Origin: Eubacterium sp.
GTDB taxonomy: Bacteria; Bacillota; Clostridia; Lachnospirales; Lachnospiraceae
NCBI GenBank assembly: GCA_024696635.1
Contig: JAILGP010000120.1
Location: 1 to 39,473, forward strand
DNA: 39,473 bases
Reading direction: 5' to 3'
Shown here in pieces: positions 18,244 to 21,413 of this stretch (position 1 is its first letter; every line of letters begins with the position of its first letter). The position numbers and the translations under genes were made by a program. The notes beneath the pieces are model-generated. The model was not told where the DNA came from. It saw only the letters and a list, made by a program, of their open reading frames with translations, and ran no database searches.

Positions 18244-20961
18244 TTGATTAAGAAAATACTTTTTGAGCTGCTTCTATTTATTATCATATTTATAGGGGCA
18301 GCTTTGTCCTTTAATTACATACAGAATAGAAATCATGGAACAAGGGCTGTTGAGGGCTTTAATCCAACCATGGGTTGTGCATATATCTGGTATGATGGAG
18401 AAATCATCAATAGTATGCAGGGATATAAGCAAAGTCTTTATACCGGACTCTATAGGGATAGCATAGTTTCTGTAGGAGCTGATAAAAAGATTAATATAAT
18501 GCTCCCTGAATCAGTGGATACTGGTGGAGAGCTGACCTATGAGTTAAGAAGCTTCAGTGGAGATAATCTGATAGAAGATGGAGATTTCAGATTTGAAGAA
18601 ACTGAAGGAAGTATGACCCGATACAGTGCTGTTCTTCGCATGGATATGACTGAGGGAACTGAATATAGTTTTATCATAAGGGTTAAAAGAAGTGATGAAA
18701 CCGTTCGCTACTACACAAGAGTAGTGAGACTAAGTGATTCCAAGCTGGCGGATTTTGTAAGATATGCAAAGGGCTTCAGTGACAGTGCTTATGCTGGAAA
18801 TGCAGCTGCCAATGCATATGCTACTAATACAGATGCTATAACTACCTATAATATATCTGGTCAGGCTGTAGATTCCATGAAGGAAGAATCAGAGGAAGTT
18901 GATGATAAGCCAGTTGCAACAACTACAGATGCAATGGAGGGAGTAAGGGTTCCTGATATTACTACAGTCTTTTCCAGTGCAGATGCTTCCAGTGCCATGT
19001 ATGATGCTGTCGCAGCAGCTAAGGTTTCATCAAGTGGAAATCCTGGTTATGTAACTCTTAAGTCTTCCTATGAGGATGTTATATTTAATGGGATGAGGAT
19101 AGACAGACTTAGTACTCCTGAAGCAAAGGTTAAGGAAATAACAAATGAGGGTGCTATAGTAGAGCTTAGATATAAAGCCATAGAAGAAGCCGAGGACAGT
19201 ATATCTACCTATGCAGTTATTGAATATTTCAAGCTGGAATACAATAATGGTCAGGCCTCTATTGATATACAGGATTATCAGAGAAAGGTTTACCAGGACT
19301 TCAATGCTTCTGGGTTTGATTCCTCAAATAATAGTATAAATCTTGGTATATCAGCTGAGAGAGATACGGATTTTCTTACGGATGATGAAAGCAAAAAGCT
19401 TGCCTTTGTGGCTGATAACAGTTTGTGGTTTTTAGATCTTAAAAGCAAAACCTATACCAGCGTTTATGGAACTTCACTGGATGAAGCGGAGAAGGAGCGT
19501 ACTCCTCAGGAAGGCTATGCTATAAGACTTCTTTCGATAAATGAAGAGGTTTTGAATTTTGTTGTATATGGAAGGATAAATGAAGGAGTCCGTGAAGGTC
19601 AGACGGGTATAGCCCTTTATGAATATACCATGGCTGATTCAATGCTTAGAGAGCTTCAATTTATAAAAACTGATAAGAGTGTTGATGCTCTTAAGCTGTC
19701 AGTTGGACGCTTTTGTTATTATGATAAGGAAAAAAGATTATTCTATACACTTTTGGGTGACAAGCTTCTGAATATAAATATATATTCTGGAGATGTAACA
19801 GAGATGATGGATGGCATGTATTATACAAAGATGCTTGTTTCCAAAGATATGAAGAGAATAGCATTTCCTAATAATAGTGATCTTACTCAGGTTACTGGTA
19901 TAACTCTTATAGATTTTGAAAAGGGAACCAATGTAGATATAAGTAAAGATGGTAAGAGGATGGCTTTACTTGGCTTTGTTGGTAATGATCTTATGTATGG
20001 AGTGGCTGATCCTGAATATGTAAGTCATTCTGTAGATGGAACACCACTCTTTAAGTTTGATGAGCTTTTCATAGTCCATACTAATGGAGTTGTTGTAAAG
20101 GATTATAAGAGGGAAAATGTCCTTATATCAGGAATAGAATTCCAGGATAATAATATATACCTAACCAGGCTTATGAAATCTGAGGAAACAGGTGGCCTGG
20201 AAGAAATAGATGGTGACTATATATCCTACAAGCCTGTTTCAAGTTCTGGAGATGCACAAATCTCTATTATTAAAAATGAATTGGGAAATCAGGAAACTCA
20301 TATTAAATTCCCTGATACTGTATATGTGAATTCATCAAATGAGGAGCTGCTTACTAAGGTAATCTCTGGTGATGACGGTAATGACCTTGATATTGAGGAT
20401 ATTGTGATCGATCCTACCGCAGCTTATATATATGATTCTACTGGACTTATGGGAATATCCTATAGTGTAGGAAAGGCAGTTCAGCAGGTTCATGATAATG
20501 GAGGCTTTGTGGTTAATGCCTCAGGAAGAATGCTTTATAGTGAAAAAACCTCCAGACCATATCTAACTGTGGCCGGTACATTTGATTATAAATCTGTAGA
20601 AAGCGAGGCTGATACATTTGCCGCTTGTAACTATATGTGTATATTGGCAAGTGGACTTTATGCAGATTATGAAGAGGTGAAGGCTGCGGCTTCCTGGTCT
20701 GAAAGCTTCAAGCTCTATAGTGATGAGGTTATGGGCATAAATCTGACAGGTGTATCTCTAGATACGGCAATAGGATATCTTAGTGATGGCTGTCCTTTTG
20801 CTGCAAAGCTTGAGGATAAGTATGTTCTGGTGGTCAGCTATAATTCGGACTTTATAAGATACTATAATCCGGTGTCTGGAGAAGAGGAGCGTGTTAACAG
20901 AAACACATTCCAGCGTAAATGCCAGGATGCTGGAAATGAATTTTATACATATGTGAAATAA
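18244..20961 (+). CDS. Large membrane-anchored extracytoplasmic protein of unknown function; possible propeller-like middle and C39-peptidase-like C-terminus
   Basis: 905 aa from TTG, 5 nt after the pfk stop; N-terminal TM (KKILFELLLFIIIFIGAALSFNYI); C-terminal SDGCPFAAKLEDKYVLVVSYNSDFIRYYNPVSGEEERVNRNTFQRKCQDAGNEFYTYV. Confidence 0.75.
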   Translation: MIKKILFELLLFIIIFIGAALSFNYIQNRNHGTRAVEGFNPTMGCAYIWYDGEIINSMQGYKQSLYTGLYRDSIVSVGADKKINIMLPESVDTGGELTYELRSFSGDNLIEDGDFRFEETEGSMTRYSAVLRMDMTEGTEYSFIIRVKRSDETVRYYTRVVRLSDSKLADFVRYAKGFSDSAYAGNAAANAYATNTDAITTYNISGQAVDSMKEESEEVDDKPVATTTDAMEGVRVPDITTVFSSADASSAMYDAVAAAKVSSSGNPGYVTLKSSYEDVIFNGMRIDRLSTPEAKVKEITNEGAIVELRYKAIEEAEDSISTYAVIEYFKLEYNNGQASIDIQDYQRKVYQDFNASGFDSSNNSINLGISAERDTDFLTDDESKKLAFVADNSLWFLDLKSKTYTSVYGTSLDEAEKERTPQEGYAIRLLSINEEVLNFVVYGRINEGVREGQTGIALYEYTMADSMLRELQFIKTDKSVDALKLSVGRFCYYDKEKRLFYTLLGDKLLNINIYSGDVTEMMDGMYYTKMLVSKDMKRIAFPNNSDLTQVTGITLIDFEKGTNVDISKDGKRMALLGFVGNDLMYGVADPEYVSHSVDGTPLFKFDELFIVHTNGVVVKDYKRENVLISGIEFQDNNIYLTRLMKSEETGGLEEIDGDYISYKPVSSSGDAQISIIKNELGNQETHIKFPDTVYVNSSNEELLTKVISGDDGNDLDIEDIVIDPTAAYIYDSTGLMGISYSVGKAVQQVHDNGGFVVNASGRMLYSEKTSRPYLTVAGTFDYKSVESEADTFAACNYMCILASGLYADYEEVKAAASWSESFKLYSDEVMGINLTGVSLDTAIGYLSDGCPFAAKLEDKYVLVVSYNSDFIRYYNPVSGEEERVNRNTFQRKCQDAGNEFYTYVK

Positions 20962-21040
20962 AAAAGAAAGAGTCGCTTTGGCATGCGACTCTTCTTTTTA
21001 GTATGAAAAAATGTGGGGGAAGGTATAGAATCCTTCGTTT
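20961..21040 (-). ncRNA. Candidate small RNA, copy 1 of a tandem pair
   Basis: Minus strand: 5' hairpin GAAGG-ATTCTATA-CCTTC (21036-21019), linker CCCCACATTTTTTCATACTAAAAAG, terminator AGAGTCGC-atgccaaa-GCGACTCT plus T-rich tail. Promoter-like AGGACA-N16-TATAAT upstream. Closely matched by a second copy at 21241-21319. Confidence 0.6.
20968..20999. terminator. Bidirectional intrinsic terminator (ends the 18244-20961 gene and sRNA candidate copy 1)
   Basis: AGAGTCGC-tttggcat-GCGACTCT with an A-rich 5' side and TTCTTTTT 3' side. Confidence 0.85.
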
Positions 21041-21046
21041 GGAATA

Positions 21047-21074
21047 ATTATAATATAAACTTCTTTTTTGTCCT
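21047..21074 (-). promoter_or_regulatory. Putative sigma-A-type promoter of sRNA candidate copy 1
   Basis: Minus strand AGGACA (21074-21069), 16-nt spacer, TATAAT (21052-21047). Confidence 0.5.
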
Positions 21075-21240
21075 TTATTAGACGATTGTGTGAACAGTGT
21101 GTTAAATCTTTTAAATCTTTTATATGAGTATTTTTATATAAGGCTTATCAAAGAGTTGATATAATTCTTTATCGCAAAATCATTTTAAACATATATAATT
21201 TTAATGAAAATTTTTTACTATTAAGTTTTAAATAGATAAT

Positions 21241-21319
21241 AAAAAAAGAGCCGCTTTGGCGTGCGACTCTTTTTTTTTAGTATGAAAAAATGTGGGGGAA
21301 GGTATAGAATCCTTCATTT
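21241..21319 (-). ncRNA. Candidate small RNA, copy 2 of a tandem pair
   Basis: Same architecture as copy 1. Shares GAAGGATTCTATACCTTCCCCCACATTTTTTCATACTAAAAA exactly; terminator stem AGAGTCGC/GCGGCTCT keeps pairing on the minus strand through a U-G wobble. Confidence 0.6.
21247..21278 (-). terminator. Terminator of sRNA candidate copy 2
   Basis: Minus strand AGAGTCGC-acgccaaa-GCGGCTCTTTTTTT. Confidence 0.75.
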
Positions 21320-21325
21320 GGAACA

Positions 21326-21353
21326 ATTACAGTATAACAAGATATTTTGTCTT
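21326..21353 (-). promoter_or_regulatory. Putative promoter of sRNA candidate copy 2
   Basis: Minus strand AAGACA (21353-21348), 16-nt spacer, TGTAAT (21331-21326); same geometry as copy 1. Confidence 0.45.
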
Positions 21354-21413
21354 TAATTAGACCGTTGTGTGAAAAGTCTGTGAATTAATATGATTTTATT
21401 TAAAATAATATTC

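Follow-up and report, generated by a model that had tools for sequence, protein, structure and literature searches.

A tandemly duplicated candidate small RNA gene of Lachnospiraceae with an 11-bp-repeat promoter of a class that also precedes htrA

The window analysed here, a stretch of 39,473 nucleotides from a Eubacterium sp. of the Lachnospiraceae, contains on its minus strand two tandem units at an offset of 279 bp, each composed of a promoter, a 5' hairpin, a C-rich single strand and a terminator, which we predict to be a small RNA (sRNA) gene that is duplicated here. Our analysis places the promoter of this gene in a class that is shared with further sRNA-like units and with sites upstream of htrA, and the occurrence of one promoter class before both sRNAs and htrA points to a secretion-stress response that has an RNA arm. 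We consider it probable that the units belong to an sRNA regulon resembling the CiaR-csRNA system, with a CssR-like secretion-stress regulator and antisense action at ribosome-binding sites. The features of the two copies, together with the convergent gene beside copy 1, are as follows.

21331..21386, minus strand: promoter of copy 2 (profile of 54 homologues; promoter model match)
21384-21379, 21373-21368, 21362-21357 and 21351-21346, minus strand: 11-bp-spaced repeats of copy 2, TTCACA, TTCACA, GTCTAA and GACAAA (promoter profile)
21336-21331, minus strand: -10 element of copy 2, TATACT (profile of 54 promoters)
21241..21324, minus strand: predicted sRNA of copy 2, about 84 nt, start near 21324 (model R1, fold)
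21298..21315, minus strand: 5' hairpin of copy 2, GAAGG-AUUCUAUA-CCUUC (fold; pairing probabilities)
21281..21298, minus strand: single-stranded core of copy 2, CCCCCACAUUUUUUCAUA (near-invariance in 45 sequences; C-run predicted unpaired)
21241..21276, minus strand: intrinsic terminator of copy 2 (fold, terminator search, stem covariation in homologues)
21052..21107, minus strand: promoter of copy 1 (promoter profile; promoter model match)
21105-21100, 21094-21089, 21083-21078 and 21072-21067, minus strand: repeats of copy 1, TTAACA, TTCACA, GTCTAA and GACAAA (promoter profile)
21057-21052, minus strand: -10 element of copy 1, TATATT (profile of 54 promoters)
20961..21045, minus strand: predicted sRNA of copy 1, about 85 nt, start near 21045 (model R1, fold)
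21019..21036, minus strand: 5' hairpin of copy 1, GAAGG-AUUCUAUA-CCUUC (fold)
21002..21019, minus strand: single-stranded core of copy 1, CCCCCACAUUUUUUCAUA (sequence comparison; predicted unpaired)
20961..20998, minus strand: terminator of copy 1 (fold, terminator search)
18244..20961, plus strand: 905-aa protein gene (open reading frame; syntenic neighbour of the sRNA)

The duplication had been described originally as two copies about 280 bp apart sharing an identical run of 42 nt, and both points are borne out, with 84% identity over ungapped units of 114 nt (20992-21105 and 21271-21384, minus strand) and an exact 42-nt run common to both copies. The terminator units (20958-20999 and 21236-21277) are offset by 278 and share 88% identity. 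Gene and promoter appear to have been duplicated together in tandem in this genome, the rest of which holds no further match above chance level. Model R1 recovered copy 1 at 3.4e-20 and copy 2 at 1.6e-20, both sequences having been included in its training. The promoter model matched copy 1, which lay outside its training set, with E=0.005 at 21052-21106, and copy 2, which lay within it, with E=2.1e-5 at 21332-21385.

Both copies fold as had been proposed, with a GAAGG/CCUUC hairpin, an open linker and a terminator, at folding energies well below those of shuffled sequences (z=-6.3 for copy 1 and z=-5.9 for copy 2), and four terminator-like sites were observed where 0.3 were expected. The convergent 905-aa gene has its stop codon directly at the terminator of copy 1, which is terminator-like on the plus strand too. 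In the alignment of homologues all nine pairs of the terminator stem covary, each with double changes, the number of double-change cells being 79 as compared with 22 in shuffles, and the stem is 95% paired as compared with 38-66% when it is slid. Conservation of the hairpins and linker among relatives was thus found for the terminator and for the core, in which the exposed stretch UAUACCUUCCCCCACAUUUUUUCAUA is nearly invariant across 45 sequences while flanks and terminator diverge, but less fully for the 5' hairpin. The latter has a mean pairing probability of 0.77 and is predicted in most of the 45 homologues, yet it showed no covariation when tested among them, and seven of the 45 prefer an alternative UUCC/GGAA hairpin or neither. 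The predicted unpaired probability across homologues is 0.99 for the C-run and 0.86 for UUUUUUCAU.

A DNA query of 120 nt found matches in all 61 genomes of the same genus, mostly in single copy, and the public records that have the exact core are Lachnospiraceae (AC2031 and NE2001, with one copy each, and 'Eubacterium' MAGs). The unit adjoins the 905-aa gene throughout the genus and in three genera besides (L107, L108 and L110). That gene is located after recR and a phosphofructokinase gene, and its product has no match in Pfam or NCBIfam. The orientation of the unit and its outer neighbour vary among genomes, with promoter, core and terminator remaining together. There is a single candidate reading frame; 22 of the 45 homologues have ATG at its start, and indels of 1 and 2 nt shift it. 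A comparison with Rfam, which had been suggested as a check, matched no family; at gathering and loose thresholds the unit returned chance matches only, and the RsaE/RoxS and LhrC covariance models neither matched at the gathering threshold nor appeared among the weak matches. A scan of viral contigs with CCTTCCCCCACATTTT gave 18 matches, in all of which the surrounding unit was absent. Because of the conservation in 61 of 61 genomes, the covarying terminator, the frames broken by indels and the missing Rfam match we assign the units to an sRNA gene, and the earlier proposal of a regulatory RNA of the base-pairing type is further strengthened by the invariant core and a promoter of its own. 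Own promoter, terminator, absence of a conserved frame and covarying structure are together, as predicted features, those of an intrinsically terminated sRNA gene. As far as the sources consulted reach, the predicted sRNA is new and lies outside every Rfam family.

In order to describe the promoter we aligned 54 upstream regions, which share four blocks with an 11-bp period (TTCAC, TTCACA, AACnnA and TTCATA) followed by 9 nt and TATATT. The repeats lie at -61, -50, -39 and -28, with near-invariant C and A, and the profile shows no -35 element. The -35 elements of the original prediction, AGGACA and AAGACA, correspond instead to the degenerate fourth repeat, and its -10 elements, TATAAT and TGTAAT, are displaced by five bases from TATATT/TATACT, which lie just upstream and are better conserved over the 54 promoters. 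As the -10 is reassigned to these, the predicted starts shift from 21040 and 21319 to about 21045 and 21324, and the predicted RNAs are about 84 nt long. Direct repeats of 11 bp before a -10 element have the layout that is typical of activator sites for response regulators of the OmpR family, which we would expect to act here.

Searching with a pattern of two repeat blocks and a -10 brought out a second sRNA-like unit that is present in most of the genus and has the same promoter layout with a different sequence (CAUAGAUUUUUCAUAACUCUCUCACCCUAUG, UUUUUCAUAACUCUCUCACC); it was unmatched in Rfam. It carries a core UUUUUCAUAACUCUCUCACCCUAUGAAUAGUGUAU and a terminator (L155-L169, L177 and L184-L198, for example G004:C1:671057-671111). 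With a promoter-only model (A2/R2) built from the promoters of both units, additional sRNA-like units were found within the genus and in other genera. Of 149 Lachnospiraceae genera that were sampled, 63 have sites at E<=0.001, for the most part in front of further sRNA-like units. Among 66 out-of-genus sites that were examined, UUUUCAUA or UUUUUCAU lies no more than 150 nt away in 42, the figure for shuffles being 2.3 and that for control windows 2%; by hand count these 42 span about 35 genera, and 20 of them have UUUUUCAUAAU-hairpin-CUCCUC in common. From these counts the element shared across the units would be UUUUUUCAUA with a pyrimidine-rich partner, and not the C-run alone. Units of the form UUUUUCAUAAUA-hairpin-CACUCCUCAUUUU stand behind the same promoter type across Lachnospiraceae (L250-L270 and L308-L341). 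Two other sRNA-like units are likewise duplicated in tandem with their promoters (L233 on G221:C88 and L235 on G189:C29, 329 and 239 bp apart), and therefore tandem duplication recurs in this promoter class. We regard the family-wide set defined by this promoter as a putative new form of sRNAs under two-component control.

The same class of site is found before protein genes. In other genera it lies upstream of genes identified with Pfam as Trypsin_2 (HtrA-type) protease, VTC, Cthe_2159 and HSP20, and the proteins at L309 and L334 are HtrA-like by eye, their fragments being unmatched in Pfam. By automatic scoring the best site of the locus lies just upstream of htrA in 10 of 18 genomes; among 120 control genes the count is 17 (Fisher p=2.6e-4). 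At L355 this scoring misplaced the htrA start and the site, AACACA-N5-AACACA, was then judged by eye, which brings the count to 11 of 18, the p value covering the 10. Repeats resembling TTTTCACA, of the sRNA promoter class, thus occur upstream of htrA orthologues as expected for a CssR-type regulator; before the htrA of the window's own genome there is only a weak site, of rank 9 (L361). Promoter-like sites of the class were also seen before a PilC-like type IV pilus gene in three species (L167, L170 and L239) and before a CstA-like gene in one (L243), all named by eye. In B. subtilis TTTTCACA is the box of CssR, which controls htrA and htrB (PMC6749698), and in streptococci CiaR drives the csRNAs from promoters of the form TTTAAG-N5-TTTAAG-N10-TATAAT (PMC3091779) and controls htrA too (PMC8317062). 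Given the promoter type and the company of htrA, the CssR box and the control of htrA and csRNAs by CiaR, a CssR/CiaR-like secretion-stress regulator is the most likely candidate.

We propose that each copy is an independent sRNA gene of about 84 nt, at which an OmpR-family response regulator, most likely CssR/CiaR-like, would bind the 11-bp direct repeats and recruit RNA polymerase to a promoter that has a -10 and lacks a -35. The RNA so made would present the near-invariant UAUACCUUCCCCCACAUUUUUUCAUA between its 5' hairpin and terminator hairpin, and this strand would act as antisense to ribosome-binding sites of mRNAs, the C-run facing the G-rich Shine-Dalgarno sequence and CAU possibly facing AUG, thereby reducing translation of the targets. 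The sRNA of the window would then be one of several Lachnospiraceae sRNAs with the same promoter, which together form the RNA side of a response that has HtrA on its protein side. More tentatively, and with rather less confidence than we place in the regulon itself, this can be extended to a secretion-stress regulon across the whole family, in which one CssR-like regulator would drive HtrA-type quality control together with several sRNAs, fast-evolving in sequence and conserved in architecture, that have UUUUUUCAUA and a C-rich anti-Shine-Dalgarno element in common. Such a regulon would correspond, in Gram-positive bacteria, to the sigma-E sRNA logic.

For an RNA of this architecture, antisense pairing at ribosome-binding sites would be the mode of action to assume by default, and translation starts resembling GUGGGGGAAGGUAUG could be covered by the exposed strand. 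Its predicted pairing is stronger at translation starts than in coding sequence, but shuffled strands do equally well (z = 0.87), so that the strength of pairing at starts reflects the composition of the strand. The pattern TGGGGGAA-N1-6-ATG has 96 matches as compared with 34 for its reverse, an excess that is not evidence of targeting since any Shine-Dalgarno-like pattern is enriched before ATG. Starts with ATGAAAAAA or AUGAAAAAA are not enriched among signal-peptide genes (2/84 as compared with 7/287), and antisense action at AUGAAAAAA starts of signal-peptide proteins was rejected on this ground and because pairing was no better than with shuffles.

This unspecific target prediction would also fit an exposed core whose partner is a protein, or another RNA in the manner of a sponge, rather than the ribosome-binding sites of mRNAs, and UUUUUUCAUA, which is common to units with different C-rich parts, fits a protein-binding element and an anti-start motif equally. 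We nevertheless think such a role unlikely, as the seeds of csRNAs and RsaE/RoxS usually have this layout of an unpaired, near-invariant, pyrimidine-rich strand between two hairpins. It is possible, if still rather doubtful, that the same sRNA gene answers to another member of the OmpR family, PhoP/PhoB-, ResD- or WalR-like, and so to a phosphate, redox or cell-wall signal. The PhoP-, ResD- and WalR-type boxes look alike, and the 11-bp repeat layout and -10 spacing would suit any activator of the family. A C-rich Firmicutes sRNA, RoxS, is indeed controlled by ResD (PMC4409812). Against such a regulator the site is at htrA in most cases and elsewhere at hsp20, VTC and Cthe_2159, and against phosphate in particular PstS (TIGR02136) was found in just one of the 14 genomes of the genus that were searched. 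The single PstS gene is that of the window's own genome (L118, G000:C118), the other 13 being without one or having one too diverged.

Readings without an sRNA gene fare worse. An HD-GYP gene precedes the units on the same strand, and the terminator search gave none in the interval from this gene to copy 2, as would suit a 3'-UTR element of that gene or an array of its terminators, but we judge this very improbable because in other genomes neighbour and orientation change and promoter, core and terminator stay linked. A repeat or mobile element of the MITE type might account for the two copies, and a small protein gene for the frame that opens with ATG in roughly half of the homologues; both are contradicted and have next to no probability. 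There are no MITE-like features, the unit is mostly present once per genome at a syntenic place and the window's genome has no other copy, and the frame is broken by indels of 1 and 2 nt and by changes in the terminator.

Lachnospiraceae are among the dominant commensals of gut and rumen, yet our literature search yielded little about sRNAs in them. With a conserved promoter code by which sRNA genes can be recognised from their sequence alone, dozens of sRNAs would become testable in many genera at once, and they would be connected, as they are in streptococci, with the quality control of envelope proteins. If the favoured secretion-stress reading is true, the pairing of several sRNAs with a two-component system that controls HtrA arose, or persisted, well outside the streptococci.

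Among known systems the LhrC sRNAs of Listeria are tandem and multicopy, with pyrimidine-rich seeds and control by a two-component system. The tandem copies are as in the window, and no relation to LhrC was found in sequence or in Rfam. RsaE/RoxS resemble the predicted sRNA in having single-stranded, C-rich seeds, which in their case pair with Shine-Dalgarno regions, and a regulator of the OmpR family, ResD/SrrA (PMC4409812); they differ in promoter and structure, in having several C-rich regions rather than one C-run, and the sRNA does not match them in Rfam. The CssR box TTTTCACA (PMC6749698) agrees with the TTCACA core found here and the promoter class likewise precedes htrA, and no sRNA arm came up in the literature that we searched on CssRS. 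The closest likeness is to the CiaR csRNAs. The sRNA promoter does not carry the CiaR box (TTTAAG/NTTAAG-N5-TTTAAG-N10-TATAAT), having instead up to four repeats of the TTCACA/TTCATA/TTTACA type, and the RNA differs in sequence, belongs to the Lachnospiraceae and is predicted from genomic data. It agrees with the csRNAs in the direct repeats with an 11-bp period placed just upstream of the -10 (PMC3091779), and CCCCCACAUUUUUUCAUA is, in prediction, an unpaired strand with a C-rich anti-Shine-Dalgarno part and CAU, flanked by two hairpins, as is the pyrimidine-rich strand of the csRNAs. Several sibling sRNAs belong to the CiaR regulon and would do so in the regulon proposed here, and as CiaR controls htrA (PMC8317062) so the promoter class here precedes htrA. 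The resemblance to csRNAs noted in the original prediction is therefore apt beyond layout, extending to regulator-type repeats at the -10, to a set of sRNAs and to a promoter class shared with htrA.
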